A DNA stretch of 32,691 nt. Origin: Candidatus Saccharimonadota bacterium (GTDB lineage: Bacteria; Patescibacteriota; Saccharimonadia; Saccharimonadales; Saccharimonadaceae). The notes under the pieces were generated by a model. It was not told the origin of the DNA. It worked only from the letters and a program-made list of their open reading frames with translations, and searched no databases. Position numbers and translations under genes: made by a program. Below, one piece after another: positions 6,776-27,663 of this stretch; the stretch's first letter is position 1, and the number at the start of each line of letters is the position of its first letter. The stretch lies in the NCBI GenBank assembly GCA_017433765.1, contig JAFRGO010000003.1, positions 1 to 32,691 on the forward strand. The letters run 5' to 3'.

Positions 6776-8158
6776 TTATTCATAAATCTTCTCCTTGATC
6801 GCCTCAATCTCCTCCCTTAGCTGAAAATCATTCTTAATGTCCCCCTCTATCTTCTTCACCCCGTGCATCACCGTCGTGTGGTCCTTCACCCCCACCTCGC
6901 TCGCGATTTTATTCGTGCTCATCCCCAGCTCCTTCGATAGCAAAAACATCGCCACCTGCCTCGCCGTCTTAATATTTGAGACTCGACTCTTGCTCCGCAG
7001 CTCCTCCACCTCTAGTCCATATTGCTTCGCCGTCTTATCGAGAATCTTCCGCGGCGTCACCGACCGTATCCTCCCGCCCGTCTGTGTCACCGAGGTATAA
7101 CCATCTTCGATTAGCTGCAGCGGCGACATCCCCCGTAGCTCCGACACCGCCAAAATCCTCGATAATTCGCTCTCCAGGTCGCGAATATTCGTCTTTATCT
7201 CCTCCGCGATAAACTCAATCGCCTCGTCCTCTATCTCCGCCCCCAGGAAATCCGCCTTGCTCTTCAGTATCGCACACTTATCCTCGAAGTTCGGCATCTG
7301 TAGGTCGATCGCCCCCGCCATCGCCAGCCTGCTCGCCAGCCTCTCGTCTAGCGTCTTGATTTGCCCAGGCAGCCTATCGCTCGTAATAATAATCTGCTTG
7401 TTCGCCTGATATAGGTCATTAAAGATATTGAAGAATTGCTCTTGGCTCGCTTCCTTCCCGATTATCATCTGGAAATCGTCGATAATCAGCACATCCAACT
7501 TCCGATATTTCTCCGCGAAATCCTCTCTCTTACTACTCTGTACCATCTTGATATACTCGGAATAAAAATGATTGACCGGCGTATAAAGTATCTTTAGTTT
7601 CGGATTTCTTTTTGCCAACTCATTTCCAATCGCCTGTACTAGATGCGTTTTTCCCAACCCAGGTCCCCCGTAGAGGAAGAATGGGTTATATTTTTCCCCA
7701 GGCCTCTCCACCACCGCCTTCGCCACCGACACCGCCAAATCATTATTCGACCCGATGATGAAGTTATCCAAGGTGTATTTCGGGTTCAAATTCGTGTTCG
7801 CGCTCTTCGCCCGCATCGCCGTCGCTAGTGGCAGGGTTTCACCCACCTTTCCCACCTTTCCGCTCCGCTTCGCCGTACTCCGCTTGATTTCCACTCCCCC
7901 CTCCTCGTGTGTCTCTATCTTTTTATCTACACGAAACTCTACTTTTTCTACCTCCGCCCCATTGTTCCTTAGCGCCGCCAATATCATCTCCTTATATTTC
8001 TTCTCTAGATTTGTCTTCTTGAACACGTCTGGCACCCCAACCGTCGCCACTCCGTCCTCTACCCCTATCAGTTCCACTCCTCGAAAATAAGTCACAAACA
8101 GGGAACGGTCGAGCTTGCCCTCGATTTCTGTCAACACATTTTTCCAGACGCTAAACAC
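6776..8158 (-). CDS. dnaA: Chromosomal replication initiator DnaA
   Basis: A 460-residue AAA+ initiator that binds origin boxes and opens DNA. Domain I is residues 1-75 (VWKNVLTEIEGKLDRSLFVTYF), followed by a short linker. Domain III carries Walker A GGPGLGKT at 164-171 and Walker B VLIIDDFQ at about 223-230. Domain IV carries RQVAMFLLSKEL and the signature DHTTVMHGVKKI. The frame is open further upstream, but I choose GTG at 8158. AGGAGG (8165-8170) sits 6 nt before it, the protein then begins exactly where other DnaA proteins begin, and the promoter -10 (8183-8188) lies inside the longer alternative. A DnaA-type box overlaps the -35 region, which suggests autorepression. Confidence 0.95.
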   Translation of the reverse strand: MFSVWKNVLTEIEGKLDRSLFVTYFRGVELIGVEDGVATVGVPDVFKKTNLEKKYKEMILAALRNNGAEVEKVEFRVDKKIETHEEGGVEIKRSTAKRSGKVGKVGETLPLATAMRAKSANTNLNPKYTLDNFIIGSNNDLAVSVAKAVVERPGEKYNPFFLYGGPGLGKTHLVQAIGNELAKRNPKLKILYTPVNHFYSEYIKMVQSSKREDFAEKYRKLDVLIIDDFQMIIGKEASQEQFFNIFNDLYQANKQIIITSDRLPGQIKTLDERLASRLAMAGAIDLQMPNFEDKCAILKSKADFLGAEIEDEAIEFIAEEIKTNIRDLESELSRILAVSELRGMSPLQLIEDGYTSVTQTGGRIRSVTPRKILDKTAKQYGLEVEELRSKSRVSNIKTARQVAMFLLSKELGMSTNKIASEVGVKDHTTVMHGVKKIEGDIKNDFQLREEIEAIKEKIYE

Positions 8159-8211: not shown

Positions 8212-8335
8212 CAACTTTTCCCAAAATTCCCCTTTTATGATATTTTATGTTTCCCGCCCAAAAGAGGTGGGCTTTTCCACAGCCCCTCCTATTCCCCAGA
8301 AGAAAGGTGGAAAACTCCTTGAAAAATGTGGAAAA
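8205..8335. other. DnaA-box-like cluster upstream of dnaA
   Basis: TTTTCCACA occurs at 8205-8213 and 8273-8281, its complement TGTGGAAAA at 8327-8335, and GGTGGAAAA at 8306-8314, all in the 224-bp gap between divergent dnaA and rpmH. Each differs from the classical box TTATCCACA by one or two bases. Together with the dnaA-dnaN gap this resembles a bipartite origin as in Bacillus. The boxes overlap the dnaA -35 and the rpmH promoter spacer. Confidence 0.6.
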
Positions 8336-8347
8336 CCGCGCTATACT
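8319..8347 (+). promoter_or_regulatory. rpmH promoter
   Basis: TTGAAA (8319-8324), a 17-nt spacer, then TATACT (8342-8347). A DnaA-box-like TGTGGAAAA lies inside the spacer, so the box could tie ribosomal protein L34 and RNase P expression to DnaA. The leader is about 30 nt and carries AAAAAGGA before ATG 8383. Confidence 0.7.
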
Positions 8348-8382
8348 AGAACAAATATTTGCCAATTTTAAAAAAGGATACT

Positions 8383-8520
8383 ATGCCCAAGCGTACATAC
8401 CAACCCCACAAACGCCAGCGCAAAGTCGAACACGGCTTCATGAAGCGCAACGGCTCCCATTCTGGTCGCCTAGTTCTAAAGCGTCGCCGCCTCAAGGGTC
8501 GCGCTCGTCTCACCGCCTAA
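8383..8520 (+). CDS. rpmH: Ribosomal protein bL34
   Basis: A 45-residue, very basic large-subunit ribosomal protein. It begins [19 protein letters not shown] and contains [17 protein letters not shown] and KGRARLTA, close to the universal L34 pattern MKRTFQPS...GFRARMAT...VLARRRAKGRKRLSA. A purine-rich AAAAAGGA (8371-8378) lies 4 nt before the ATG. The stop codon overlaps the rnpA start as TAATG (8518-8522), so the two are translationally coupled, the classical arrangement next to the origin. Confidence 0.96.
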
Positions 8521-8861
8521 TGTTAAGCGCGAAATATCGCTTCCATTCTCGTGGTGGGGTGCGCTACACCTACCAAAAGGGAAAGACTCTCCGCACTCCG
8601 GAGCTTTCCCTTGTTTTTAATCCCAACGACCGGGGCTACACCCGCTTCGCTGTTGTCGTGTCCAAAAAGGTCGCCAAATCCGCCGTCCTCCGCAACCGTA
8701 TCCGCCGCCGCCTCTACGAAGCCATTCGTCTCAACCCCACCAGCTTCTCCCGCCCCCAAGACAACATCTTCGTCGTCTATTCCAAGTCCCTCGCCACCCT
8801 CCCCTTCGACGAACTCTGTCGTCGCCTTGCCTCTCTTCTTGAAGAATCCTACCATTCTTGA
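8520..8861 (+). CDS. rnpA: Ribonuclease P protein component
   Basis: A 113-residue basic protein that helps the RNase P RNA cleave tRNA 5' leaders. The family signature is clear: FAVVVSKKVAKSAVLRNRIRR followed by RLYEAIR, matching the RNRIKRR helix that binds the RNA. Near the N-terminus KYRFHSRGGVRYTYQKG matches the usual substrate-binding start. The true start is ATG 8520, overlapping the rpmH stop, although the same frame stays open about 270 bp further upstream, antisense-free but beneath rpmH. The final residues LLEESYHS end at a TGA embedded in the yidC promoter. Confidence 0.94.
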   Translation: MLSAKYRFHSRGGVRYTYQKGKTLRTPELSLVFNPNDRGYTRFAVVVSKKVAKSAVLRNRIRRRLYEAIRLNPTSFSRPQDNIFVVYSKSLATLPFDELCRRLASLLEESYHS

Positions 8862-8867
8862 TATAAT
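8839..8867 (+). promoter_or_regulatory. yidC promoter inside the end of rnpA
   Basis: TTGAAG (8839-8844), a 17-nt spacer, then TATAAT (8862-8867) extended by TGA (8859-8861). The TGA is also the rnpA stop codon. ATG 8876 follows after 8 nt, so the yidC message from this promoter would be leaderless. Confidence 0.7.
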
Positions 8868-8875
8868 TATCTCTA

Positions 8876-9952
8876 ATGAAAAAATATCTCAAATATTTTA
8901 TTCTTATCGCCTTCTTTGTTGGGATGTTTTTCACCCAATGGAATCTTGTCGCCCTGATTGATATCGTCGTCGTCCGCCCCATCGTCAACGTCCTCTTCCT
9001 GATTTACAACGTCATCGGTGACTTCGGCTCCGCCATCATTCTCTTCACTATCCTAGTGAAGCTCCTCATGTATCCGCTGACGAAGAAACAACTCTTCCAG
9101 ACCCGCCTCATGAAGAAAATCCAGCCCGAGCTGGTCGAGATTCGCAAGAACTCGAACGGTAATAAGCAACTCGAGTCGCTCCAGACCATGGATTTGTACA
9201 AAAAATACAACATCCACCCCTTCCGCTCGATTTTGACTATTTTCATCCAGCTCCCGATTTTCATCGCCCTCTTCTCGGCCATTCGCATCATGGTCGTCCC
9301 CACCCCCGACGCCAATCTCGAGAATCGCGCCTATTCCTTTGTTGCTTACGAGGGGTCAAAAATTTCCGAAGTTATTGAACTCCAAAGACCTTATCTCGCT
9401 GATAAGACAGATGATTCTATTCCGAATGAGGACAAGACTGCCTATGATTTCCACCCCGTCCTCTTCGGTCTCATTCCTCTTGACGGCTACGCCAGCGGCG
9501 TCCTTTCTTTGAATTTCTCTCTTGCTAATCTCTTCGCTCTCGGCTGCGCCCTCGTTGCCACTCTTGTCCAATATATCGTCACCAAGCAACAGCAGCCCAC
9601 GAATAAAAAGCATCGCTTCCGCGACCTTATGGCCGACGCCAAGGCCGGCAAGGATATCGACCAGTCCGCCCTTTCCGACCTCTCCACTTCCCAGATGAAT
9701 ATCATGATGCCCCTTATGATGTTCATCATCATGTTCTCCCTTCCGGGCGCCCTCGTCTTTTACTATTTCCTGAGTAATCTTCTTTCTATGGCTCTCAACA
9801 AATTCATCCTCCATCGCGCCGAGCGCACCATGGATGATAACGTTGATCGCGCCATGACCCGCGAGCTGAAACATATTCAAGAAGCCCAAATTATCGAAAA
9901 CAAAAAAACCGGCACCAAAATCACCATTTCTTCTAAAAAGAAAAGGAGATAA
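8876..9952 (+). CDS. yidC: Membrane protein insertase YidC/Oxa1
   Basis: A 358-residue integral membrane insertase that places proteins into the cytoplasmic membrane with or without SecYEG. There is an N-terminal hydrophobic segment (4-22). The Oxa1 core then begins with NVLFLIYNVIGDFGSAIILFT, followed by LVKLLMYPLTKKQLFQTRLM, the amphipathic RMMKKIQPEL-like stretch (here MKKIQPELVEIRKN), and YKKYNIHPFRSILTIFIQLPIFIALF. Further membrane helices occur at about 200-225 and 270-300. The tail is Lys/Arg-rich (KKTGTKITISSKKKRR), as in ribosome-binding YidC proteins. It has no large periplasmic P1 domain, as expected outside Gram-negative Proteobacteria. It is followed after 2 nt by khpB. Confidence 0.93.
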   Translation: MKKYLKYFILIAFFVGMFFTQWNLVALIDIVVVRPIVNVLFLIYNVIGDFGSAIILFTILVKLLMYPLTKKQLFQTRLMKKIQPELVEIRKNSNGNKQLESLQTMDLYKKYNIHPFRSILTIFIQLPIFIALFSAIRIMVVPTPDANLENRAYSFVAYEGSKISEVIELQRPYLADKTDDSIPNEDKTAYDFHPVLFGLIPLDGYASGVLSLNFSLANLFALGCALVATLVQYIVTKQQQPTNKKHRFRDLMADAKAGKDIDQSALSDLSTSQMNIMMPLMMFIIMFSLPGALVFYYFLSNLLSMALNKFILHRAERTMDDNVDRAMTRELKHIQEAQIIENKKTGTKITISSKKKRR

Positions 9953-12368: not shown

Positions 12369-12932
12369 ATGACAAAACAAACACCTCCTCAGTCTTCTTC
12401 TCGCCAACGCAACCCCCTCGCGATTCTTTTGGGGCTCGCCCTTCTCGCCGCTGTCGGCCTCCTCGTCGCCAAACTTATCACCACGCTTAGCGCCCCCGCC
12501 GCTTCCACCGATTTTTCCACCGAGACTGTGGAAAACTCCTCCGTCTCGACAGATACCCCCGCCGATTCTTCCACATCTGTGGAAAACTTACCTCTGGAGA
12601 AAAAGCCCGTCGAACAATATTCCGCTCCCGACCCCAACACTCTCTCCTCCCTTACTGGCTTCCTCACCACCGCCCGCGTCTCTGGTGACAAACTCCTCCT
12701 TCGCGTTGCCATCGACCAATTCCTCGATTCCGGCACCTGCACCCTCTCCTTGACCTCCGCCAGCGCCCCCGCCTATTTCGCCTCCGCCCCCCTCGTCCCC
12801 GACGTCTCTAGCTCCACTTGCGAGGGCTTCGACGTCCCGCTTTCTTCCCTCGGCTCTGGCGCCTACGACATCCGTATCGAACTCACCTCTGGCGACCGCA
12901 CCGGCCTCATTCTCGGAGATGTGAAGCTATGA
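12369..12932 (+). CDS. Single-pass membrane protein with exported domain
   Basis: A 187-residue protein of unknown function. Residues 1-15 are polar and basic, and residues 16-40 form a hydrophobic segment (LAILLGLALLAAVGLLVAKLI). Residues 41-85 are a Ser/Thr/Glu-rich linker in which SVEN-like units recur, and residues 90-187 are a compact domain (LLLRVAIDQFLDSGTCTLSL, YDIRIELTSGDRTG) with two Cys that could pair. The domain looks beta-rich, immunoglobulin-like, but I cannot place it in a family. It overlaps the next gene as ATGA (12929-12932), so both are co-translated. The linker DNA contains four DnaA-box-like 9-mers. Confidence 0.7.
   Translation: MTKQTPPQSSSRQRNPLAILLGLALLAAVGLLVAKLITTLSAPAASTDFSTETVENSSVSTDTPADSSTSVENLPLEKKPVEQYSAPDPNTLSSLTGFLTTARVSGDKLLLRVAIDQFLDSGTCTLSLTSASAPAYFASAPLVPDVSSSTCEGFDVPLSSLGSGAYDIRIELTSGDRTGLILGDVKL
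12513..12586. other. DnaA-box-like cluster inside a coding region
   Basis: TTTTCCACC (12513-12521), TGTGGAAAA (12527-12535), TCTTCCACA (12567-12575) and TGTGGAAAA (12578-12586) lie within 74 bp. The last two form a perfect palindrome, TTCCACA-TC-TGTGGAA. The cluster lies about 4 kb from dnaA, in the part of the gene coding for a disordered linker. Confidence 0.5.
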
Positions 12933-14395
12933 CCTCTCGCCGCCTCCTCCTCGGTCTCTCTGGCTTTCTCTTCGCTTTCGTCGCCACGCTCACCTTTTTG
13001 CAGTTTTCCCGCCCCACCTCCTCCTCCGCCGCCTCGCTTGACGCCTTCGATCCGGGGCTAATTATTAGTGATTACACTATGTCCAACGCTTCCACCATGT
13101 CCGAGGCGGACATCCAGGCTTTTCTGACTAGTAAAAATAGCTGCACCAACACCAATCGCGCCTACTACGACGCTCTCTCTGCTGCCAACCCCAGCGCCTC
13201 TTGGCATTGGCAGGACGACCACTTCGTCTGTCTTTCCGAGGAACTCTTCGGCGATGGCGAGATTATCGGTTCTGGCGATACCGCCGCCCATATTATATAT
13301 ACTATTTCCCAGGAATACAGCATCAACCCCCAAGTCCTCCTCGTCCTCCTCCAGAAAGAGACCGGCCTCATCACCGACCCCATCCCGAATAACTACGATT
13401 ATCGCAAGGCCACCGGCTTCGGCTGTCCCGACACCGCCGCCTGTAGCGCCGAGTATTATGGCTTCAAAAACCAACTTCGCCACGCCGCCGCCCTCTTCCG
13501 TACCGTCCTCGACGGTGGCTGGACCAACTATCCTCTGGGTGAAAACTACGTTCGTTTCAGCCCCGATGCTTCTTGCGGCGGTTCCACCGTCAACATCCGT
13601 TCTCTCGCCACCTCCGCCCTCTATCGCTACACTCCCTACCAGCCCAACGCCGCCGCCCTCGCCGCCGGCTACGGCACCGCCGTCTGTGGCGCCTACGGCA
13701 ACCGCAACTTCTATCTCTATTTCCTAGATTATTTCGGCTATGACCCCTCTTCGTCTCCTGTGGCTCAGGGAACTGCCGCCAGTGAGCCGACTGCCGAGGA
13801 AATCCTCGCCCGTCTCCAACCCATCGACCCCGTCGCTAGTGACCTCGCCCTCGAATATTCCGCCCATGTCCAGAAGCTCGGCTGGATGGACTGGTCCAAC
13901 GCCGGCGAAATGGCTGGCACCACTGGCTTCTCTCTCCGCCTCGAGGCGCTGAAAATTCGTTTGAAGGATAAACTCTCTGGTATTGAATATCGTTCTTATG
14001 TTGAGGGTAGCGGCTGGGAGACTAGCTATCGCAAGGACGGCGCCGAGTCCGGCCTTACTGGCCAGTCGAAACGTCTCGAAGCTCTAGAAATTCGCCTGAC
14101 CGGCAGCCTTGCCGACGAATATGATATTTATTACCGTACCCATATCCAGAATATCGGCTGGACTGACTGGTCAAAGAACGGTGCGGTTTCCGGTGCGCCA
14201 GGCGAAGGTCTCCGTCTCGAAGCTCTCCAAATCAAGGTCGTGAAAAAGCCGAAACAGATTTCCGCCCTCTCCTACCGCGCCCACGTCCAAAACATCGGCT
14301 GGCAAGATTGGGTGAAGAACGGCGCCCTCGCCGGCACTTTCGGCCAATCTCTCCGCCTCGAGGCCCTCGAAATCAAGCTCTCCCCAAAATCATAA
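12929..14395 (+). CDS. Secreted hydrolase-like protein with four ChW repeats
   Basis: A 488-residue exported protein. There is a signal peptide at residues 1-35 with core LLLGLSGFLFAFVATLTFL. Residues about 40-275 form a lysozyme- or glucosaminidase-like domain with YSINPQVLLVLLQKETGLI (candidate catalytic Glu144), six or so Cys and FYLYFLDYFGY. From about residue 308 to the end there are four ChW (clostridial hydrophobic W) repeats. Each has the pattern HVQ..GW.DW...G..AGT.G.S.RLEAL.I, and the second is divergent (YVEGSGWETSYRKDG). ChW repeats are known in secreted Clostridium and Saccharibacteria proteins and are thought to bind surfaces. The start at 12929 overlaps the upstream stop, although the frame is open 111 nt further. 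The last 36 nt belong to the 43-bp direct repeat. Confidence 0.82.
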   Translation: MTSRRLLLGLSGFLFAFVATLTFLQFSRPTSSSAASLDAFDPGLIISDYTMSNASTMSEADIQAFLTSKNSCTNTNRAYYDALSAANPSASWHWQDDHFVCLSEELFGDGEIIGSGDTAAHIIYTISQEYSINPQVLLVLLQKETGLITDPIPNNYDYRKATGFGCPDTAACSAEYYGFKNQLRHAAALFRTVLDGGWTNYPLGENYVRFSPDASCGGSTVNIRSLATSALYRYTPYQPNAAALAAGYGTAVCGAYGNRNFYLYFLDYFGYDPSSSPVAQGTAASEPTAEEILARLQPIDPVASDLALEYSAHVQKLGWMDWSNAGEMAGTTGFSLRLEALKIRLKDKLSGIEYRSYVEGSGWETSYRKDGAESGLTGQSKRLEALEIRLTGSLADEYDIYYRTHIQNIGWTDWSKNGAVSGAPGEGLRLEALQIKVVKKPKQISALSYRAHVQNIGWQDWVKNGALAGTFGQSLRLEALEIKLSPKS

Positions 14396-14402
14396 ACTCT
14401 TC
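14360..14402 (+). repeat. 43-bp direct repeat, left copy (native gene end)
   Basis: The last 12 codons of the ChW gene, including TAA, plus 7 bases downstream. It is repeated perfectly at 15149-15191, beginning GAGGCCCTCG and ending AAACTCTTC. The flanking bases differ on both sides, so the repeat is exactly 43 bp. Confidence 0.95.
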
Positions 14403-14409
14403 AATAATC

Positions 14410-14443
14410 AAAAAACCTAGGCGGGAACGAATCCAGACCTAGG
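14410..14443 (-). terminator. Terminator of the NYN cassette gene
   Basis: On the minus strand CCTAGG (14443-14438), a 16-nt loop, CCTAGG (14421-14416), then TTTTTT (14415-14410). The hexamer is self-complementary, so it pairs with its second copy. It lies 38 bp after the gene's stop codon. Confidence 0.65.
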
Positions 14444-14480
14444 CGCTGTATCTTAATAATACTCTATTTACCCTAAAATG

Positions 14481-15098
14481 TCAATAGCTATTTGTGGTTT
14501 TATATGCATTTATGATTTCATCATCTCTGAGTGCTTGAGTGGCATTACACTCATCTACCAATGCTCTGGTTAGTCTCTCGCTAAATCCGACATAAATAAC
14601 GTCCTTGCCAGCTCTTTTTGCGCTCAAGACAGCAGGGATCAAATCCGTATCGGAACTGACTAGTATGATTCGATCAACTTCGCCTCTTAAAGCATCTTCA
14701 ACAATACTCACGGCTATGCCAACGTCGACGCCTTTTTCCTGATAGCGGAAATCTTTGTTACCACAATTTTTGCAAACGTCACTATCTCTAATTTTTAATT
14801 TCCCAGCTTCAATATAAATAATATTTTACTTAGCGAGATTATTACGTATGCGACGTAAATTATCGGAAAACCTGACTGATTTATCTAAAATTTCTTGGCC
14901 GAAGTCTGGACGACGCTTGATTTTTGCGACTCCGAAGAATCGAATCTCTAACTCTTCATTAGGGAACAATTTCTCGAGCATTGGACGAATATCTATAGCA
15001 TTAAGGTCTTGCTTATCTGCGATCAATCCGTGCTTCGCCAAAATCTCGGAGGTTTTGTACAAGAAGTTTTGACCATCGATATAAACAATGTTCTTCAT
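14481..15098 (-). pseudogene. NYN-domain ribonuclease-like gene, interrupted by one in-frame TAA
   Basis: The minus-strand frame from ATG 15098 runs 205 codons to TGA 14481, with one internal TAA at 14828-14826 (codon 91). The part before reads KNIVYIDGQNFLYK (first NYN Asp) and ends RRIRNNLAK. The part after continues in the same frame with YIEAGKLKIRDSDVCKNCG, EKGVDVGIAVSIVEDALRGE and ILVSSDTDLIPAVLSAKRAG, all typical of NYN (PIN-like, LabA/DUF88) proteins. No frameshift is needed. One C-to-T change (CAA or CAG to a stop) would explain it. NYN proteins are often metal-dependent RNases. Codon use (AAA, TTA, AGA, ATT) is unlike the neighbours, which suggests transfer. Readthrough or a sequencing error remains possible. 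Confidence 0.8.
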
Positions 15099-15104
15099 GC
15101 TCCA

Positions 15105-15113
15105 ATCATATCA
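15105..15113 (-). promoter_or_regulatory. Promoter of the NYN cassette gene
   Basis: TGATATGAT on the minus strand, a near-match to the local TGNTATAAT box. It is 6 nt from the ATG at 15098, so the transcript would be leaderless or nearly so. Confidence 0.55.
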
Positions 15114-15148
15114 TATTTAGTATAATTATGCGCCGGTTTAAAACATTT

Positions 15149-15191
15149 GAGGCCCTCGAAATCAAGCTCTCCCCAAAATCATAAACTCTTC
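15149..15191 (+). repeat. 43-bp direct repeat, right copy
   Basis: Perfect copy of 14360-14402. Here it is non-coding and sits 9 bp before the extended -10 of the next gene. The native downstream sequence resumes after it. Confidence 0.95.
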
Positions 15192-15214: not shown

Positions 15215-16081
15215 ATGGCAAAAACTCCGGCCCATCTTAGTCTTGCCGCGGCGGTTATCCTTTATCATCCTACCGACGCCGACCTCGCAAACATCTCGAC
15301 CTATCTCGATGATGTTGACCGGCTTTTTGTTGTCGATAATACCGAAGGCGAGAATAATGAGTCCCGTCTTCCCGTCTCCGACAAGATAAAGTATATCTGG
15401 AAAAACGAAAACCTCGGCGTTGCCGCCGCTCTCAATCTCGCCGCCACTCTGGCGAAAAAGGAGGGTTACACCTGGCTCCTCACCAACGACCAAGACACCT
15501 CCTTCCGTGCTGGTGTCCTTCCCGCGCTCAAAAATCACGCCGCCACCGTTGATAACTCTCTAATCGCCATTGTCGCCCCCTGGCACAAGACGAAATTGAA
15601 ATCTCGCCGCCCTCGCAAAAATCCCGACTATCCCCACGACGTCATGACTTCCGGCAACCTCCTGAACCTTGCGATTTGGGAGAAGCTCGGCGGCTTTGAC
15701 GAAGACTTATTTATCGATGGCGTTGATCTTGAATATTGTATCCGCCTAAAGAAATTTGGCTACAAGATTTTTCGCGACAACTCCCTCGAAATCGACCATA
15801 ATCTCGGCGACCTTTTCTACGGCCGAGTTCGCCAATTCGTTTTTCTCTGTACCAACCACACTCCCATCCGCCGCTACTATATGATGCGCAACGCCCACTA
15901 TCTCCTCGACCGCTATCGCGACTTCGACCTATCCTACTGTATCGAACTTTGTGCCGCCCAAAAACGCAACATGATTGGCGTCCTCCTCTTCGAGAAAAAC
16001 AAATTCGCCAAAATCAAAATGTATTTGCGGGGTTATCGCGATTATAAAAAGGGAATCAAAGGAAAATACCATGCCAACTAA
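15215..16081 (+). CDS. Family 2 glycosyltransferase, rhamnosyltransferase-like
   Basis: A 288-residue cytoplasmic enzyme with a GT-A fold. Visible motifs in order are AAAVILYHPTDADL (nucleotide-sugar site), DRLFVVDNTE, NENLGVAAALNLA, WLLTNDQDTSF (the metal-binding DQD in place of DXD) and MTSGNLLNLAIWEKLGGFDE followed by DGVDLEYCIRLKKFGY (acceptor region with the catalytic acidic residue). The DQD form and the GNLLN...GGFDE layout are typical of RfbF/WbbL-type rhamnosyltransferases, which fits the rmlACBD genes downstream. The substrate is inferred. Its stop overlaps the next start by 11 nt. Confidence 0.85.
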   Translation: MAKTPAHLSLAAAVILYHPTDADLANISTYLDDVDRLFVVDNTEGENNESRLPVSDKIKYIWKNENLGVAAALNLAATLAKKEGYTWLLTNDQDTSFRAGVLPALKNHAATVDNSLIAIVAPWHKTKLKSRRPRKNPDYPHDVMTSGNLLNLAIWEKLGGFDEDLFIDGVDLEYCIRLKKFGYKIFRDNSLEIDHNLGDLFYGRVRQFVFLCTNHTPIRRYYMMRNAHYLLDRYRDFDLSYCIELCAAQKRNMIGVLLFEKNKFAKIKMYLRGYRDYKKGIKGKYHAN

Positions 16082-19797: not shown

Positions 19798-20538
19798 ATG
19801 AAAACCAAAAAAGTCCTCATCATCATCCCCGCCTACAACGAAGAAAAAAGCATCCTTTCTGCCGTTGACTCCATTCGTGATTATAACCGGACTGCCAAAT
19901 CTCCCTACGACTACCTCGTCATCAACGACGGCTCGACCGACTCCACCGAGTCCATTCTCCGCGAACACGACATCCCCCACGTTACCCTCCAACGCAACCT
20001 CGGCATCGGTGGCGCCGTCCGCACCGGCTATCGCCACGCGCTAAAAAACGACTACGACTTCGCCATCCAATTCGACGGCGACAACCAACACGACATTCTC
20101 TGCGCCGAGGCCATTCTCGCCCCGCTTCGCTCCGATTCTGCCGACCTCGTCATCGGCTCCCGCTTCGTGAAAGGGAACGAAGACAACGAATTTTATTCTT
20201 CCTTCGCCCGCCGCACTGGTATCAAACTCCTCTCCTATCTCATGCGTTTCAAGACCGGCCACACCGTTCTCGACACCACTTCTGGCTTCCGCGCCGCCAA
20301 CCGCCGCATGATCGAAGTTTTTGCTCGTCGCTATCCCACCGAATACCCCGAACCTATCTCGACCACCGAGGCGCTCCTAGACGGTTTCCGCGTCGTCGAA
20401 GTTCCGGTGAAGATGCACGCTCGCACGACTGGCCGCTCTTCTATCCACGGACTGAAGAGTATTAAATATATGACCACCGTCTTCGCCGCCGTCCTCACCG
20501 CTCGGAAACAATCTAAACGCCAGAAATCCTCCCGATGA
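19798..20538 (+). CDS. DPM1/GtrB-like polyprenyl-phosphate glycosyltransferase (GT2)
   Basis: A 246-residue GT-A enzyme. Motifs are VLIIIPAYNEEKSI, YLVINDGSTDST, LQRNLGIGGAVRTGYRHAL and FAIQFDGDNQHD (metal-binding DGD), then LVIGSRFVKG and DTTSGFRAANRRMIEVFARRYP. This set marks the dolichol/polyprenyl-phosphate mannose or glucose synthase group. It lacks the two C-terminal transmembrane helices of GtrB, like DPM1. ATG 19798 lies 4 nt after TAGGAG (19788-19793), which also contains the upstream stop. It overlaps the next gene as ATGA (20535-20538). It could make the lipid-linked sugar used by the DUF2142 protein. Confidence 0.85.
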   Translation: MKTKKVLIIIPAYNEEKSILSAVDSIRDYNRTAKSPYDYLVINDGSTDSTESILREHDIPHVTLQRNLGIGGAVRTGYRHALKNDYDFAIQFDGDNQHDILCAEAILAPLRSDSADLVIGSRFVKGNEDNEFYSSFARRTGIKLLSYLMRFKTGHTVLDTTSGFRAANRRMIEVFARRYPTEYPEPISTTEALLDGFRVVEVPVKMHARTTGRSSIHGLKSIKYMTTVFAAVLTARKQSKRQKSSR

Positions 20539-21647
20539 AACTCACTCCCCAAACCAAACTCCTCCTCGCCGCCCTCGCCAAGGGCCAGCGTCTCGCCGTC
20601 TATATTGTCGAGAACCAGACTTCCGCCCAATTCCGCTATCGTTGTGCCAATCCTTCTGCCGCCACCGAGGCCAGCTCTTCTTGGCAAGCCGTCTATTACG
20701 AAAAGTCCGAGCTCTCCGAAGTCGAAAAAGTCCTCGACCGCATCGACCTGATTATTATCGAACGCCAAACCGCGAAGGATAATCTCCTCCTCGATTTTAT
20801 CCGGCTCGCTCACTCGCGGGGCAAAAAGGTTCTCTTCGATCTCGACGACCTCATCTTCGACTACCGCGACCTCCCCACTCTCATGCGTGCCACGAGTAGT
20901 AAAAATATCTTCTACTGGCTCGCCTACTTTTTTGCTATTCGTCGCATCGCTCGTCGTGTTGACGGCTTCCTCGCCACCAACGATTTTCTCGCGAAGAAAT
21001 TAAAGCGGAGCTTTAAAAAGCCCGTCGCTGTCATTCCCAACTCTCTCAACTCCGACCAGCTCACTGTCTCCGCTGAACTTTTGCTGAAGAAATCCGAGAA
21101 ATCCACCTTCACCCTCGGCTACTTCTCCGGCTCCCCCACCCACCAAAGAGACTTCGCCCTCATTCTTCCCACTCTCCTTGACTTCCTCTCCGCCCATTCC
21201 GACGCTCGCCTCCTCATCGTCGGCTATATGCGCCTTCCTCGCTCCGCGCGCTCTCTCCTCGCCGCGAAACGCATCATCCAAAAGCCCCCCACCGACTATC
21301 TAAAGCTCCAAAAGCACATCGCTTCCGCCGATCTCAACCTCGCCCCGCTGGTGAAAAGCGACTTCGCCGACTGTAAAAGCGAGCTCAAGTTCTTCGAATC
21401 CGCCATCGTCGAAGTCCCCACTCTCGCCTCCCCGACCTACGCCTTCCGCCACGCTATCAAATCCGGCGAAACCGGCTTCCTCTGCTCCGACGCAAAGGCT
21501 TGGCGCAACACTCTCGAGCTTCTCTATTCCGACCAGAAACTCCGCCACTCCGTCGCCAAAAAGGCCAAAAGCTACTGCCTAAAGACTTATTATGGCAAAA
21601 CTTTCTTGAAACAAATCGAGGAGGCCTATGACTTCTTTAAAAAATAA
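20535..21647 (+). CDS. Glycosyltransferase, paralogue of the first half of the 16071 enzyme
   Basis: A 370-residue GT-B-like protein. It shares with residues 45-370 of the 16071-18248 product the blocks GKKVLFDLDDLIFDYRDL (versus NKTVFYDIDDLVFDL), LGYFSGSPTHQRDFALILP (versus LGYFSGSMTHNADFDLITP), LNLAPLVKS (versus INLAPLEPS) and SGETGFLCSDAKAW (versus DGKTGLLCDNTPDAW). The two are clearly related by duplication. It starts within the upstream stop codon. Its last 20 nt overlap the next gene, whose GAGGAGG Shine-Dalgarno is inside this frame. Substrate unknown. Placement in the cluster suggests it adds a sugar to the same glycan. Confidence 0.82.
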   Translation: MKLTPQTKLLLAALAKGQRLAVYIVENQTSAQFRYRCANPSAATEASSSWQAVYYEKSELSEVEKVLDRIDLIIIERQTAKDNLLLDFIRLAHSRGKKVLFDLDDLIFDYRDLPTLMRATSSKNIFYWLAYFFAIRRIARRVDGFLATNDFLAKKLKRSFKKPVAVIPNSLNSDQLTVSAELLLKKSEKSTFTLGYFSGSPTHQRDFALILPTLLDFLSAHSDARLLIVGYMRLPRSARSLLAAKRIIQKPPTDYLKLQKHIASADLNLAPLVKSDFADCKSELKFFESAIVEVPTLASPTYAFRHAIKSGETGFLCSDAKAWRNTLELLYSDQKLRHSVAKKAKSYCLKTYYGKTFLKQIEEAYDFFKK

Positions 21648-22617
21648 TTTCGAGAGCCATCTCAAACAATCTACCTTTATCCCCGCTCTCTATAGCTCCT
21701 TCACCCGTCCCTTCCGGAAATCTCTCCGTCGCCTCGACCCCACTCCCCCTCGCATCCCGCTTGAGCCAGCAAAAGTCTCCGTCGTCGTCCCGAACTATAA
21801 TTACAAACACTACCTCGCTGCCCGCCTCGATTCGATTTTGTCTCAGACCTACCCGCTCTACGAACTAATTATTCTCGACGACAACTCTACCGACGGCTCC
21901 ATTTGGTTCATCGAGGACTGGCTCGAGGCCACCCAAAAATCCTTCCCCGAGCTCAAAATCCGCTTTATTAAGAACGACCAAAACTCCGGCTCCGCCATCG
22001 CCCAGTGGCAACGCGCCTTCCGCGAGGCTTCTGGCGACTTTCTCTGGCTCGCCGAGGCCGACGACCTCTCCGACCCCTACTTCCTCGCCACCGCCATGTC
22101 CGCCTTCGCCTCGGACGACTCCGTCCTCCTCTCCTATACCGAATCTTCCGTCATCAACGCTCGCGGCTCCTTCCTCTCCTACGATTTTTCTTCTCGTATC
22201 GACAAAGAAAAATCCGGCCTCTTCCAGAAATCGTTTGTGAGGAGCGGGGAAGAACTCGCCAGCTCCATTTTTGCCATTCGCTGCGCCATTCCTAACGTCA
22301 GCGCCGTCGTTTTTCGCAAAACCTCCGGCCTCCCATTTGCCGACTATCTCGAGTCCGCGAAAAAGTTTTCCCAATGTGGCGACTGGTATTTCTACCTCCA
22401 GCTCCTCGCCCACGGCAAAGTCGCCTATAATCACGCCTCACTCAACTTCTTCCGTGTCCACTCCGCTAGCATTACTGCGAACTCAAAAAAGGCGAAACGT
22501 CACCTCTCGGAAGTCGAAGAAGTCCAAGCCTTCGCCCGCGAACATTATTTCCTCTCTCGCGAAACCCTCTCCGCCCAAGCTGCCGAGCTCGACCGCATCT
22601 CTTCTCGCCTCGCCTAA
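21628..22617 (+). CDS. Family 2 glycosyltransferase
   Basis: A 329-residue GT-A enzyme. Residues 1-45 are basic. The catalytic domain then begins VSVVVPNYNYKHYLAARLDSILSQ, followed by LIILDDNSTDGS, then NDQNSGSAIAQWQRAF and FLWLAEADDLSDPYFL (ADD as the metal-binding DXD), and a region with CGDWYFYLQLLAHG and NFFRVHSAS. This pattern is common in GT2 enzymes annotated as adding sugars to O-antigen or teichoic-type polymers. GAGGAGG lies 5 nt before ATG 21628. It is the last gene before the rml operon, whose promoter begins just after its stop. Confidence 0.82.
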   Translation: MTSLKNNFESHLKQSTFIPALYSSFTRPFRKSLRRLDPTPPRIPLEPAKVSVVVPNYNYKHYLAARLDSILSQTYPLYELIILDDNSTDGSIWFIEDWLEATQKSFPELKIRFIKNDQNSGSAIAQWQRAFREASGDFLWLAEADDLSDPYFLATAMSAFASDDSVLLSYTESSVINARGSFLSYDFSSRIDKEKSGLFQKSFVRSGEELASSIFAIRCAIPNVSAVVFRKTSGLPFADYLESAKKFSQCGDWYFYLQLLAHGKVAYNHASLNFFRVHSASITANSKKAKRHLSEVEEVQAFAREHYFLSRETLSAQAAELDRISSRLA

Positions 22618-22629
22618 TTTACTCTCTTA

Positions 22630-22638
22630 TGTTATAAT
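22630..22638 (+). promoter_or_regulatory. rmlACBD operon promoter
   Basis: TGTTATAAT with no clear -35. Unlike most promoters here it leaves a leader of about 17 nt with GAGGAG (22651-22656), 5 nt before ATG 22662. Confidence 0.7.
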
Positions 22639-22661
22639 AGACTAAAATAAGAGGAGATTTT

Positions 22662-23549
22662 ATGAAGGGAATTATTCTTGCTGGCGGTTCGGGCACGCGC
22701 CTCTATCCGTTGACCCTCGCGACTTCCAAGCAAATGCTTCCAGTTTACGACAAACCAATGATTTACTATCCGCTCTCGACCTTGCTTCTGGCGGGCATTC
22801 GCGATATTTTGATTATTTCCACTCCTGCCGACCTCCCCAACTTCGAACGCCTACTCGGCAACGGCGAGAAATTCGGCATCAACCTCTCCTACAAGGTCCA
22901 GCCTTCTCCAGATGGCCTCGCCCAAGCCTTCATTCTCGGCGAAGACTTCATCAGCGACGATAGTTGCACCATGGTGCTCGGCGACAACATCTTCTACGGC
23001 GAAGGTTTCTCCGAATCCCTCGCCCACGCCGTCCAAGATGCCGAGGCCAACTCCCGCGCCACCGTTTTCGGCTACTACGTTAACGACCCCGAGCGTTTCG
23101 GCGTCGTCGAATTCGACTCCGACTGGCACGCGATTTCCATCGAAGAGAAACCCGCTGCTCCGAAGTCCAACTATGCCGTCACTGGCCTCTACTTCTATCC
23201 CGCCGGCGTTTCCGCCAAGGCGAAGACCATCACTCCTTCCGCTCGCGGCGAGCTCGAAATCACCGACCTGAACAAACTCTATCTCGACGCCCAAACTCTC
23301 GACGTCCAACTCCTCGGCCGTGGCTTTGCTTGGCTCGACACCGGCACGATGGAATCCCTCGCCGACGCCTCCGATTTTGTCCGCGTCATCCAGAAACGCC
23401 AAGGCATCGAAATCTCCGCCCCCGAAGAAATCGCCTATCGCAACGGCTGGATTACGAAAGCCGCTCTCCTCGATTCCGCTACGAAATACGGCAAATCTAG
23501 CTACGGCCAGCATCTCCGGAGCGTAGCAGAAGGGAAGATCAAGGACTAA
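22662..23549 (+). CDS. rmlA: Glucose-1-phosphate thymidylyltransferase
   Basis: A 295-residue enzyme that makes dTDP-glucose from glucose-1-phosphate and dTTP, the first step to dTDP-L-rhamnose. The nucleotide-binding start is [17 protein letters not shown] (residues 2-18), followed by [20 protein letters not shown], then [29 protein letters not shown] and [12 protein letters not shown], all hallmarks of RmlA. Full length for the family. Its stop overlaps the rmlC start as TAATG (23547-23551). The strong Shine-Dalgarno and dedicated promoter suggest steady expression. Confidence 0.96.
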
Positions 23550-24115
23550 TGCTCACCTTCACTCCCACCAAACTCGACGGCGTTTACGTTATCACTCCCC
23601 AGGTTTTCGGCGACGACCGCGGCTACTTCATGGAGACTTATTCCGACCAGGATTTCCAAGCCGCCGGTCTCCACTACAATTTTGTCCAAGACAACCAAAG
23701 CTCCAGTCGCCAAGGCGTCCTTCGCGGCCTTCATTTCCAGAAAACTCACCCCCAAGCCAAACTCGTGCGTGTTTTAAAAGGCGAAGTTTTCGACGTCGCC
23801 GTTGACTTGCGCGAAGGCTCCGAGACCTACGGCCAGTGGGTCGGCGTTCTTCTCTCCGCCGAGAACAAAAAGCAACTCCTCATTCCGCGCGGCTTCGCCC
23901 ACGGCTTCCTCGTCGTTTCCGACTCCGCCGAGTTCGCCTACAAATGCGACGAGTTCTATCATCCCGAAGACGAAGGCGGTCTCCCCTTCGACGACCCCGA
24001 CGTCGCCGTTGACTGGCCTCGGCTCGATGTCGAGTATATTTTGAGCGAAAAAGACCAACATCACCCGCCCTTGCGCGAGTCAAAGATAACTTTCAAAGGA
24101 GAAAACCATGTCTAA
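23549..24115 (+). CDS. rmlC: dTDP-4-dehydrorhamnose 3,5-epimerase
   Basis: A 188-residue cupin that epimerises dTDP-4-keto-6-deoxyglucose at C3 and C5, the third step of the pathway. Visible motifs are FGDDRGYFMETYSDQDF, FVQDNQSSSRQGVLRGLHFQ (His62 is the usual catalytic base), AKLVRVLKGEVFDVAVDLR, LLIPRGFAHGFLV and KCDEFYHPEDEGGLPFDDP. Gene order rmlA-rmlC-rmlB-rmlD is found in several bacteria. It overlaps rmlB by 8 nt, with AAAGGAG of rmlB inside this frame. Confidence 0.95.
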   Translation: MLTFTPTKLDGVYVITPQVFGDDRGYFMETYSDQDFQAAGLHYNFVQDNQSSSRQGVLRGLHFQKTHPQAKLVRVLKGEVFDVAVDLREGSETYGQWVGVLLSAENKKQLLIPRGFAHGFLVVSDSAEFAYKCDEFYHPEDEGGLPFDDPDVAVDWPRLDVEYILSEKDQHHPPLRESKITFKGENHV

Positions 24116-25136
24116 AACTATCGTCGTCACTGGTGGCGCCGGCTTCATCGGCTCCAACTTCGTTTATTACTTGCTCGATAAGCATCCCGACTATCGTGTC
24201 GTCTGTGTTGACTGCCTGACCTACGCTGGCAATCTCTCGACCCTGAAGACTGCTCTCGAGAATCCCAACTTCCGCTTCGCGAAAGTCAATATCTGTAACT
24301 ATGACGCGATTAAATCTCTTTTCGTAGAAGAACACCCCGACATCGTCGTCAACTTCGCTGCCGAGTCCCACGTTGATCGCTCGATTCGCACTCCGGGCAT
24401 CTTCGTCGATACCAATATCAAGGGCACCGAAGTCCTGATGGATGTCTGCCGCGAACTTTCCATTCCTCGCTACCACCAAGTCTCGACCGACGAAGTCTAT
24501 GGCGACCTTCCGCTCGACCGGCCCGACCTCTTCTTTACCGAAGCTACCCCCATCCACGCTTCCTCGCCATACTCCGCCTCCAAGGCCAGCGCCGACCTTC
24601 TCGTCCTCGCCTACCACCGCACCTACGGCTTCCCCGCCACCATTTCCCGCTGTTCCAACAACTACGGCCCCTACCATTTTCCCGAGAAACTCATTCCTCT
24701 GATGATTATCAACGCCCTTCAGGACAAAAAACTCCCCGTCTATGGTGACGGCCTCAACGTTCGCGACTGGCTCTATGTTGAAGACCATTGCAAAGCTATC
24801 GACCTTATCATCCACGACGACCGTCTCGGCGAAGTTTATAACGTCGGTGGCCACAACGAAATGTCCAACCTCAACATCGTCAAACTCATTCTCGAGAAAC
24901 TAGGCAAGTCCGAAGATTTGATTACTTTCGTCGAGGACCGCAAGGGCCACGACCGTCGCTACGCTATCGACCCCACGAAGATTAAGAACAATCTCGGCTG
25001 GTATCCCGAAACCAAATTCGCCGACGGTATCGAGCGGACTATCGACTGGTATCTCTCCCACAAAGACTGGTGGCAAGAAATCATCAGCGGCGAGTACCAG
25101 AACTGCTACGACAAAATGTACGGAGGGAATCGCTAG
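24108..25136 (+). CDS. rmlB: dTDP-glucose 4,6-dehydratase
   Basis: A 342-residue short-chain dehydrogenase-type enzyme that makes dTDP-4-keto-6-deoxy-glucose with bound NAD. The Rossmann motif GGAGFIG is at residues 9-15. FAAESHVDRSI follows, then the active-site STDEVYGDL and YSASKAS (catalytic Tyr-x3-Lys), NNYGPYHFPEKLIP, NVRDWLYVEDHC and VYNVGGHNE. Length and motif order are standard. AAAGGAG lies 6-7 nt before the ATG. The rmlD start follows directly after the TAG stop. Confidence 0.96.
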   Translation: MSKTIVVTGGAGFIGSNFVYYLLDKHPDYRVVCVDCLTYAGNLSTLKTALENPNFRFAKVNICNYDAIKSLFVEEHPDIVVNFAAESHVDRSIRTPGIFVDTNIKGTEVLMDVCRELSIPRYHQVSTDEVYGDLPLDRPDLFFTEATPIHASSPYSASKASADLLVLAYHRTYGFPATISRCSNNYGPYHFPEKLIPLMIINALQDKKLPVYGDGLNVRDWLYVEDHCKAIDLIIHDDRLGEVYNVGGHNEMSNLNIVKLILEKLGKSEDLITFVEDRKGHDRRYAIDPTKIKNNLGWYPETKFADGIERTIDWYLSHKDWWQEIISGEYQNCYDKMYGGNR

Positions 25137-26033
25137 ATGAAAGTTTTTGTTACTGGTGTTTCCGGTCAACTCGGCCACGACCTTATGCTCGAACTAGAAC
25201 GACGCGGGATTAGCGCCGTCGGTTCCGACCGTTCGGGCGAGAGCGACGAGTTCACCGTTGTCGCCCTCGACATTACCGACCGCGAAAGAGTTCTCTCCAC
25301 TCTCTCCGCCGAACACCCCGACGCCATCATCCACTGCGCTGCTTGGACCAACGTTGACGCCGCCGAAGACACCGAGAACCTTCCGAAAGTCCGCGCCGTC
25401 AACGTTGATGGCACTCGCAACCTTGTTGACGCCGCCAAAACTCTCAACGCCAAGTTTATCTACATCTCCACCGACTACGTGTTCAACGGAGAGGGAACTA
25501 CCCCCTGGCAACCCGATGACAAAAACTACGCCCCCTTGAGCGTCTATGGCCAGTCCAAGCTCGACGGCGAGCTTATCGTTGCCAAGAATCTCGAGAAATA
25601 TTACATCGTCCGCACCGCTTGGGTCTTTGGCAAAAACGGCAAAAACTTCGTCCGCACCATGTCCGCCGTCGGCAAAACCCATCCCGAAGTTCGCGTTGTT
25701 TCCGACCAAATCGGCACCCCAACTTACTGCCCCGACCTCGCTCGTCTCCTCGTCGATATGGTTGAGACTGACCGCTATGGCTATTATCACGCCACCAATT
25801 CCGGCGGCTATATTTCCTGGGCGGACTTTACGACAGAAATCTTCCGCCAAGCTGGTATCCCCTCCAAGGTCATTCCTGTCACTACCGCAGAATACGGCCT
25901 CTCCAAGGCTCCCCGTCCGAAGAATTCTCGTCTCGATAAATCGAAGCTTGCCGAGAACGGCTTCGCCGAGCTTCCCGACTGGCGCGACGCCCTCACTCGC
26001 TTCCTCGCTGACAACCCCGAACTCAAAAACTAG
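25137..26033 (+). CDS. rmlD: dTDP-4-dehydrorhamnose reductase
   Basis: A 298-residue NAD(P)H-dependent reductase that finishes dTDP-L-rhamnose. The nucleotide motif GVSGQLG is at residues 7-13. IIHCAAWTNVDAAEDTE, FIYISTDYVFNG, YGQSKLDGE (Tyr-x3-Lys), RTAWVFGKNGKNFVRTM and VVSDQIGTPTYCPDLA follow, and the C-terminal RPKNSRLDKSKL is the usual RmlD ending region. The gene starts immediately after rmlB and is the last of the operon. It converges on wzt with only 28 bp between them. Confidence 0.96.
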   Translation: MKVFVTGVSGQLGHDLMLELERRGISAVGSDRSGESDEFTVVALDITDRERVLSTLSAEHPDAIIHCAAWTNVDAAEDTENLPKVRAVNVDGTRNLVDAAKTLNAKFIYISTDYVFNGEGTTPWQPDDKNYAPLSVYGQSKLDGELIVAKNLEKYYIVRTAWVFGKNGKNFVRTMSAVGKTHPEVRVVSDQIGTPTYCPDLARLLVDMVETDRYGYYHATNSGGYISWADFTTEIFRQAGIPSKVIPVTTAEYGLSKAPRPKNSRLDKSKLAENGFAELPDWRDALTRFLADNPELKN

Positions 26034-26042
26034 CCCTCTCTA

Positions 26043-26060
26043 ATATATATATATATATAT
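26043..26060. repeat. (AT)9 dinucleotide repeat
   Basis: Nine AT units fill most of the 28-bp gap between convergent rmlD and wzt. No GC-rich hairpin is present in the gap. The repeat is self-complementary and could weakly pause polymerase. Confidence 0.9.
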
Positions 26061-26061
26061 T

Positions 26062-26835
26062 CTATTGGAACAGCTTCAGATACTTTTCCGCTACTTTTTC
26101 CGGCTCGCCGTCCGCCACAATTTTTCCTTGGTCAATCATAATTGCGCGGCTACAATATTCCTTCACCGCATCCATCGAGTGCGTGACGAGGATTATTGTT
26201 TGCTTGCCCCTGAGCGAAGCGAAATAATCATTACACTTTTTCTGGAAGGCCGCATCCCCCACCGCCAGCACTTCGTCGAGAATCAAAATATCTCCTCTCG
26301 CCCGAATCGCAATCGAAAACGCCAGCCTTACCTGCATCCCGCTCGAATAGTTTTTGAGCTTCTGGTCTTGGAACTGTTCCAGCTCCGCAAACTTCCAAAT
26401 ATCCTCATACATCTCGTCCATGTCTTTGTTCGAGAATCCTAGTAGCGCCCCGTTGAGATAAACATTTTCTCTCCCCGTCAGCTCCGGATTAAACCCCACC
26501 CCCAGCTCGATGAACGGCACTAGGCTCCCATTGACGATGACTTCGCCTTTCCCAGGATAATATATCCCAGCCAAAATCTTCAACAAAGTCGATTTTCCGC
26601 TTCCGTTTCTTCCTACGATGCCCACGAACTCGTTTTTCTTGATTGCCAGGTCGATGCCGTTCAGCACCTTTTGCTCGCGGTAGCCCTTTATTCCGCGCAG
26701 ATTATTAAAAATCGCCTGCTTCAACCCTCCCGCTTTTTCCGTCGGCAACTTGAAACTTTTGTGCAGCCCCTTGATTTCGATTGCGATACCGTTATCGATT
26801 CTTACTTCTCGCCGAATTCCAGTTTTCCTTTTCAT
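26062..26835 (-). CDS. wzt: Polysaccharide ABC exporter, ATP-binding subunit
   Basis: A 257-residue ATPase that drives export of a lipid-linked polysaccharide or teichoic-type polymer. Walker A GRNGSGKS is at residues 75-82. The family-typical SLVPFIELGVGFNPELTGRENVYLNGALLG is split by short variations, signature YSSGMQ is at 163-168, Walker B ILILDE at 183-188, and the switch His is in VTHSMD. It ends after the ATPase domain and lacks the C-terminal carbohydrate-binding domain of E. coli O9a-type Wzt, as in TagH-like short forms. Export would therefore not be gated by a recognised terminal cap. It overlaps the permease gene stop as TAATG, with GGAGG upstream. Confidence 0.92.
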   Translation of the reverse strand: MKRKTGIRREVRIDNGIAIEIKGLHKSFKLPTEKAGGLKQAIFNNLRGIKGYREQKVLNGIDLAIKKNEFVGIVGRNGSGKSTLLKILAGIYYPGKGEVIVNGSLVPFIELGVGFNPELTGRENVYLNGALLGFSNKDMDEMYEDIWKFAELEQFQDQKLKNYSSGMQVRLAFSIAIRARGDILILDEVLAVGDAAFQKKCNDYFASLRGKQTIILVTHSMDAVKEYCSRAIMIDQGKIVADGEPEKVAEKYLKLFQ

Positions 26836-27647
26836 TATATTTCCTCCGCGAAGTATCGCGACTTTTTCCTAAAATACAACGCTCCGGCCAGTAGTATCCC
26901 CCCAGTCAACACTATCGGCAGTATCATCAGTATCGGATTCTGGAAATAATTCCATATCGTCACCGCCTGATCCGTAATTAGGCAATATCTCACGTCTTGT
27001 ATTATCTGCGCTATCGGGTTGAGCAGGATAATCTTCGCCGCAATTTCGCTCGTCTGCGCCACCATTGCGATGGGATAAATAATCGGCACCGCGTAGAACA
27101 GCGCCTGTACCAACACTTCCCAAATCGACGCAATATCGCGGAACTTCACATTTATCGCTCCGAATAGAAACGCAATTCCTAGCGACAAGCAATATAGCTC
27201 CAATACCAGCAAGGGAACTACTAGCCACGTCCAACTCGGCGTTACGCCGTTTATTAGCGCAAAAGCCACCACCACCACGAGATTTATCGCCAGATTTATC
27301 AGCGCCGTAAACGTTGTCGAAACCACCACAATATACTTCGGAAACGATATTTTTCGGATGAGATCTCCTCTCTGCACCATCGCTTGTATCCCCTGGCTAG
27401 TACACTCCGTGAAAAAACTCCACAGCGTCGTCCCCGCCAATAGATAGACCGGATAATGCGGTATATCTCCCCCAAAGCGCAACAACTTCGCGAACACGAT
27501 ATAGAGTATCGCGAACATTAAAAGGGGTCGCAGTAGCGCCCAAGCATACCCCAACACCGAACCTTGATAACGCAACTTAAAATCTGTTTTTGTGAGTTCC
27601 TTTATCAGTATCCGGTTATTTCGGTATAATACGTTCGGGATATTCAT
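26835..27647 (-). CDS. wzm: Polysaccharide ABC exporter, permease subunit
   Basis: A 270-residue ABC-2 type permease with six predicted membrane helices. The N-terminal cytoplasmic part has ILIKELTKTDFKLRYQGSVLGYAWALLRPLL, the signature of the Wzm/TagG family, and later come GDLIRKISFPKYIVVV, FRDIASIWEVLVQALFYAVPIIYP and LNPIAQIIQDVRY. I start it at ATG 27647, not at the eight-codon upstream ATG. The -10 TATAAT (27659-27654) lies between them, 6 nt before 27647, giving a leaderless message. It is divergent from the glycosylphosphotransferase gene over a fully symmetric promoter. Confidence 0.92.
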   Translation of the reverse strand: MNIPNVLYRNNRILIKELTKTDFKLRYQGSVLGYAWALLRPLLMFAILYIVFAKLLRFGGDIPHYPVYLLAGTTLWSFFTECTSQGIQAMVQRGDLIRKISFPKYIVVVSTTFTALINLAINLVVVVAFALINGVTPSWTWLVVPLLVLELYCLSLGIAFLFGAINVKFRDIASIWEVLVQALFYAVPIIYPIAMVAQTSEIAAKIILLNPIAQIIQDVRYCLITDQAVTIWNYFQNPILMILPIVLTGGILLAGALYFRKKSRYFAEEI

Positions 27648-27663
27648 GGTATAATTATACCAT
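27646..27663. promoter_or_regulatory. Perfectly palindromic divergent promoter (wzm / glycosylphosphotransferase)
   Basis: An 18-bp perfect palindrome, ATGGTATAATTATACCAT, contains TGGTATAAT on both strands (27647-27655 plus, 27662-27654 minus). The start codons are 8 nt (27664, plus) and 6 nt (27647, minus) from the two -10 boxes, so both messages would be leaderless and the two promoters should compete. Confidence 0.8.

Follow-up and report, generated by a model that had tools for sequence, protein, structure and literature searches.

A horizontally spreading NYN-ribonuclease gene with a candidate hairpin RNA antidote, inserted between 43-bp direct repeats in a Saccharimonadaceae genome

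We describe a small unit in a contig of a Candidatus Saccharimonadota bacterium that we consider, with a probability of about 0.6, to be a two-part accessory module acquired horizontally. It would consist of the gene of an NYN-family endoribonuclease and of a separately transcribed hairpin RNA of about 38 nt, the former acting as a toxin that is neutralised by the latter, and it would have been inserted with duplication of 43 bp of target. The evidence for this reading, laid out below, is computational.

Results

An A+T-rich unit inserted between two neighbouring genes

The window, that is, the whole stretch of 32,691 nt that was analysed, contains two copies of a 43-nt sequence that are 100% identical and start 789 nt apart (Table 1), whereas in 20 shuffled windows exact repeats reached at most 13–17 nt. 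The 43-nt sequence begins with the last 36 nt of the ORF of a ChW protein and runs on for 7 nt beyond it. An earlier note, made from the sequence alone, had described this repeat and its spacing, an intact ChW gene upstream and a compositionally foreign interval between the copies, all of which was confirmed: the stop codon of the ChW ORF (14393–14395) lies inside copy 1, and the interval has about 38–39% GC versus roughly 50–58% in its flanks. In the available genome assembly (327 kb, 49.6% complete) the 43-bp sequence occurs only in these two copies and the 746-bp interior is single-copy. As for the rest of the window, GC skew is negative (mostly −0.2 to −0.5) from position 1 to 32691, and a series of glycosyltransferase and sugar-transferase genes at about 20535–30215 is probably a surface polysaccharide cluster.

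Table 1. Features of the unit and of its neighbours (positions in the window).
Feature	Position	Strand	Basis
Upstream neighbour, intact, four ChW repeats	12818–14395	+	Pfam ChW 3.7e-66
Direct repeat copy 1	14360–14402	+	Last 36 nt of ChW-protein gene with stop, plus 7 nt; identical pair
Inserted unit, 746 bp, A+T-rich, single copy	14403–15148		Composition; no unit at this site in two relatives
Conserved hairpin RNA (model R1), predicted	14410–14451	−	Outer stem 14443–14438 with 14421–14416, T-run 14415–14410
Predicted promoter of the hairpin RNA	14456–14484	−	TTGACA 14484–14479, 17-nt spacer, TATTAT 14461–14456
NYN-domain RNase gene (predicted), 205 codons, broken by in-frame TAA 14828–14826	14481–15098	−	Pfam NYN; intact full-length relatives
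Direct repeat copy 2, adjoining glycosyltransferase promoter	15149–15191	+	Identical to copy 1
Downstream neighbour, intact family-2 glycosyltransferase	15215–16081	+	Pfam; ChW-type gene adjacent in relatives

The comparison with related genomes that the earlier note had proposed did reveal an empty site. When the genus was surveyed for the downstream glycosyltransferase (E≤1e-30), only two other members had it, G318 and G297, and in both a ChW-type homologue lies directly upstream on the same strand, separated by a 17-nt gap that has a −10-like box and in which no NYN gene, hairpin or repeat was found. Both relatives that have the two neighbour genes are therefore empty at this place, and if the unit is taken out of the window together with one copy of the repeat, a similar gap of 30 nt is left. 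The C-terminal parts of the upstream gene in G318 and G297 differ, which counts against our explanation. We conclude that a foreign unit was inserted between two ancestrally adjacent genes, most likely with duplication of 43 bp of target. Identity of the NYN protein to its homologues in G349, G014 and G107 is 81%, 78% and 61%, whereas that of YidC is only 53%, 42% and 46% in the same genomes; therefore the unit moves between lineages and the NYN module spreads horizontally. As the earlier note had stated, the unit carries no integrase, there being no integrase-sized ORF inside, and no terminal inverted repeats were found at its ends.

The protein is a probable NYN-domain ribonuclease

The in-frame TAA is codon 91 of the frame that runs from 15098 to 14481 on the minus strand, a position at which close relatives have Gln, and the gene is thus disrupted, unless the TAA base is a sequencing error. 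The Pfam NYN match (1.5e-12) falls in the C-terminal part of the frame, and the catalytic aspartates D8, D125, D150 and D152 are invariant across 21 homologues. PADLOC profiles gave HEC-09 matches in 21 and NYN matches in 19 of the same number of homologues. The fold was predicted by AlphaFold with a pLDDT of 93.8; its best match to a solved structure is 2qip, which is uncharacterised, no ToxN/AbiQ entry was among the matches listed in the fold search, and a search of solved structures by sequence gave no real match. A predicted NYN/PIN-like fold with conserved acidic residues points to an NYN-domain RNase. In its domain, invariant Asp and profile matches the protein resembles the LabA-like/NYN nucleases (PF01936; PADLOC HEC-09, NYN), for which no partner RNA was described in the part of the literature that we covered.

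A covarying hairpin with its own predicted promoter

The earlier note had seen a self-contained unit made of a promoter, an NYN gene and a terminator. Self-contained it is, though its NYN gene is not intact and the putative terminator appears to be a separate hairpin RNA gene, driven by its own predicted promoter and absent from Rfam (no match up to E 5). The hairpin ends in six T, and the −35 box of its promoter overlaps the NYN stop codon. A covariance model of it (R1) has a single match in the genome under study, at 59.3 bits. In an alignment of 20 hairpins, 95.6% of cells were paired versus 80.8% in shuffles; six of the nine pairs show changes on both sides, outer and inner stems covary, and the pairing signal collapses in slid controls. 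Promoters were called as consensus matches upstream of the model, and by this measure 67% of R1 hairpin loci score at least 10 of 12 positions versus 2% of random sites. The −10 box usually lies six bases ahead of the start of the model, which suggests a transcript of about 38 nt.

The hairpin accompanies NYN genes across Patescibacteria

NYN homologues were gathered from 34 of 394 family genomes, together with 80 loci from named Saccharibacteria and other Patescibacteria genomes. Almost every close homologue has a hairpin of the same type alongside, and no close relative (at least 40% identity) has an intact NYN gene without it; more distant homologues often have no R1 match, which counts against our explanation. 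The model also matches NYN loci outside the set from which it was built, including those of Dojkabacteria, Gottesmanbacteria and a serine-recombinase contig, and in 29 ChW loci used as controls it has no match at E≤1. The hairpin was found in 39 of 388 family genomes, 24 of which share it with NYN versus 3.4 expected (p about 2e-20). It is retained beside broken NYN genes in the window and in L038, L053, L159 and L243. Its side varies, after the gene in the window and L037–L039, before it in most loci and divergent in L041, and it is therefore not only a leader. The window and most loci have a single hairpin; L060/L105 has two copies and G141 two matches.

Some R1-type hairpins have no NYN gene beside them and lie near DUF3800, Fic, RelB/PIN or other genes, so that NYN is a putative partner of the RNA. 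In L149, L150, L153, L154, L165 and L168 the neighbour of such a hairpin is RelB/PIN, Fic, DUF3800 or an unassigned gene that reads into a DNA methylase match, and the lone hairpin of L149 lies between near-perfect repeats of about 40 bp. An R-x4-H-like motif suggested a HEPN domain in the gene that follows the hairpin in L165/L168, but this was rejected, as Pfam gave no HEPN match.

Repeat scars at other NYN loci

The search for NYN cassettes at other gene ends that the earlier note had proposed was successful, in that some related NYN units are flanked by repeats of 23–92 bp with unrelated sequences. In L037/L066 the repeat measures 32 bp, with one copy within rplU (as judged by its translation); in L039/L068, 23 bp with one mismatch, where a reverse transcriptase gene ends; in L040/L069, 25 bp; in L048/L077, 92 bp, corresponding to the 3′ half of the 5S rRNA and its terminator; in L058/L087, 31 bp; in L060/L105, 42 bp; in L123, 66 bp with one mismatch, where an RNase J-like gene ends; in L129, 52 bp with mismatches; and in L121, 30 bp with mismatches, at the start of atpG, the unit sitting between atpA and atpG. 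Because the piece duplicated in L037 lies within rplU, a subsequent deletion or a different history has to be assumed there.

Under a fixed criterion, direct repeats flank 8 of 75 NYN loci versus 24 of 2940 random intervals (p about 7e-7), the latter drawn from the same NYN loci with runs of N set aside; ChW loci were rejected as background since their proteins are themselves repetitive. Across Patescibacteria only about one in ten NYN homologues is flanked by repeats, which weighs against our explanation. No common core beyond the shuffled level was found among the repeats of ten loci, and the ends of the units are not conserved between loci.

The three NYN units that lie near reverse transcriptase genes of the diversity-generating type (L066, L068 and L105) are all repeat-flanked, and in two of them the repeat coincides with the end of the reverse transcriptase gene; these cases are too few to base a mechanism on. 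Apart from them, the 80 loci yielded no convincing reverse transcriptase motif, and the available half of the genome under study yielded none at all.

Discussion

What might the hairpin do? AbiF is accompanied by a hairpin RNA of about 35 nt that acts in cis by termination and neutralises in trans by binding the protein (PMC12373285). By analogy, we infer that the hairpin described here serves the NYN RNase as its antidote. Strongly transcribed, it would bind the NYN protein and hold it inactive as abiF RNA does with AbiF; were the RNA lost or titrated, the protein would become an abortive-infection or addiction toxin. In the present genome the toxin gene would have been broken later, the RNA remaining. 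An antidote RNA predicts the asymmetry observed, namely that hairpins are kept beside broken NYN genes while intact close NYN genes do not occur without them. A different role for the hairpin, after the same insertion, is unlikely, though it deserves consideration: it might regulate something else, for instance as an attenuator or as a site of NYN autoregulation, and NYN would then be a defence or RNA-processing RNase and not an RNA-neutralised toxin. Attenuation is conceivable in most homologues, where the promoter-hairpin lies ahead of the gene, and the PADLOC matches point to defence contexts. However, a hairpin that was an attenuator and nothing else could not change sides, whereas the one found here lies 3′ of the gene with its own predicted promoter in the window and L037–L039 and is divergent in L041; its persistence next to broken NYN genes likewise argues against regulation and in favour of an antidote.

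How does the antidote-bearing module relate to known systems? AbiF (Abi_2, a HEPN RNase) with abiF RNA (RF03085) is likewise a lone RNase gene beside a promoter-driven conserved hairpin RNA, and is accessory, patchy and located on mobile DNA (PMC12373285). In contrast, our protein is NYN with no Abi_2 match in Pfam, our hairpin matches neither RF03085 nor any other Rfam family and may sit downstream of the gene or divergent from it, and its neutralising role is putative. With the type III toxin-antitoxin systems (ToxIN, AbiQ, CptIN, TenpIN) the module shares the combination of an endoribonuclease and a small structured non-coding RNA, which is found adjacent to the gene, with a promoter called by consensus match. 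Unlike them, the putative toxin falls outside the ToxN/AbiQ family (NYN only in Pfam), and in the window, as in most loci, the RNA is one hairpin, whereas classic type III antitoxin RNAs are tandem repeats; this difference counts against our explanation. Since two type III features (ToxN family, tandem repeats) and both AbiF ones are lacking, the module is described as working like these systems and not as a member: it is most likely a horizontally mobile pair of RNase and RNA antitoxin. In the part of the literature covered, nothing was found on NYN in type III systems, on RNA antitoxins in Patescibacteria or on type III systems of the CPR.

Regarding the way in which the units insert, the scars look like target duplication at tolerated gene junctions. 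A staggered break with fill-in at the target would leave a duplicated scar, and recombination with imported DNA that duplicates the repeat would leave the same one. It may well be, and this concerns the mechanism only and is compatible with our explanation, that DNA from other cells recombines in a homology-assisted or illegitimate manner, with the NYN-RNA pair as a successful cargo and the repeats as by-products; we hold this to be nearly an even chance. In its favour, unit ends vary by locus and take in bystander DNA (L048/L077), and direct repeats bound further small toxin cassettes (RelE, CdiA_C) as well. Against it stands the rarity of direct repeats around random intervals of the same size in the same loci, which indicates a process that does not affect genes in general.

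Attachment sites moved in trans explain the scars less well than target duplication at gene junctions does. The earlier note had likened the unit to islands that insert at the 3′ end of a gene and restore it, and had thought of a non-autonomous unit moved in trans. Location at gene ends holds, and is shared, like the direct repeats, with such islands and with integron cassettes; the toxin cassettes of L069 even stand in a row with a shared repeat of about 80 bp. The NYN units differ from these islands and cassettes in having no integrase or shared attachment core, a variable repeat length and promoters inside the units. It is accordingly improbable that the unit is a non-autonomous element integrated in trans by a tyrosine or serine recombinase, with the repeats as attL and attR. 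Repeats that often restore the gene end (window, L068, L077, L123) and the large serine recombinases on the contig of a related unit, L243, would agree with it, but the lengths of the repeats range too widely, the L121 repeat is a gene start, the unit ends are not conserved and, above all, the repeats have no common core, because of which the integrase model was set aside. An integrase-borne genomic island is likewise not what was found, and neither is a transposon or MITE, given the absence of inverted repeats and a duplication that is not fixed and short. Searches of a phage collection with the cassette, and of viral contigs with exact and degenerate hairpin patterns, gave no match. That the repeat is an artefact of a fragmented and half-complete draft assembly can practically be dismissed, since the foreign module lies exactly between both copies and unrelated assemblies show similar NYN scars with other sequences.

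Few protein families of RNA-neutralised toxins are known (ToxN-like, AbiF). A covarying RNA family absent from Rfam and apparently tied to NYN RNases over much of Patescibacteria is thus a testable new pair, and such modules are a likely route by which very small genomes could gain defence or addiction genes. Long and variable target duplications around units without a transposase provide a defined insertion signature, and the hairpin model allows both the toxin-RNA pair and the insertion questions to be pursued directly. More tentatively, and with considerable doubt, NYN and its hairpin might be the first known pair of a new group of Patescibacteria toxins that are neutralised by RNA. Within this group, several RNase families (NYN, CdiA_C, perhaps others) would each have a dedicated hairpin RNA and would travel as minimal mobile cassettes, inserting at gene junctions by an unrecognised process that duplicates 23–92 bp of target.

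Other nuclease-hairpin units

CdiA_C nucleases occur in 150 of 388 family genomes, and their genes are mostly followed by a conserved promoter-hairpin different from R1. Together with the L069 row, the L243 contig and the R1 hairpins without NYN, the CdiA_C units suggest that a larger set of RNase-plus-hairpin units may exist.

Downstream of the CdiA_C genes of L211–L238 lies a second hairpin RNA family (GAAAGyyCG.CAGGCAACGC..GCGTAGGTTCGGGGCTTTC, T-run) with its own promoter, convergent in some loci and with partial covariation. In the same genome as the window, L197 (G000:C3) has a CdiA_C-domain gene (8234–8638) with its own 3′ promoter-hairpin; this unit is bounded by two perfect 98-bp repeats (7782–7879 and 8834–8931), which sit in a duplicated surface-protein gene end resembling a diversity-generating variable region. 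L069 has at 735–2810 its row of toxin-like units (CdiA_C, hairpin-NYN and, judged by eye, MazF-like), each with a strong promoter and a hairpin and with the repeat between them; additional promoter-hairpins belong to the row. On the L243 contig (IMGVR_UViG_3300050014_001054), the large serine recombinases are found together with the hairpin, a truncated NYN gene and Doc-like and CdiA_C-like genes, the gene names being taken from the translations.
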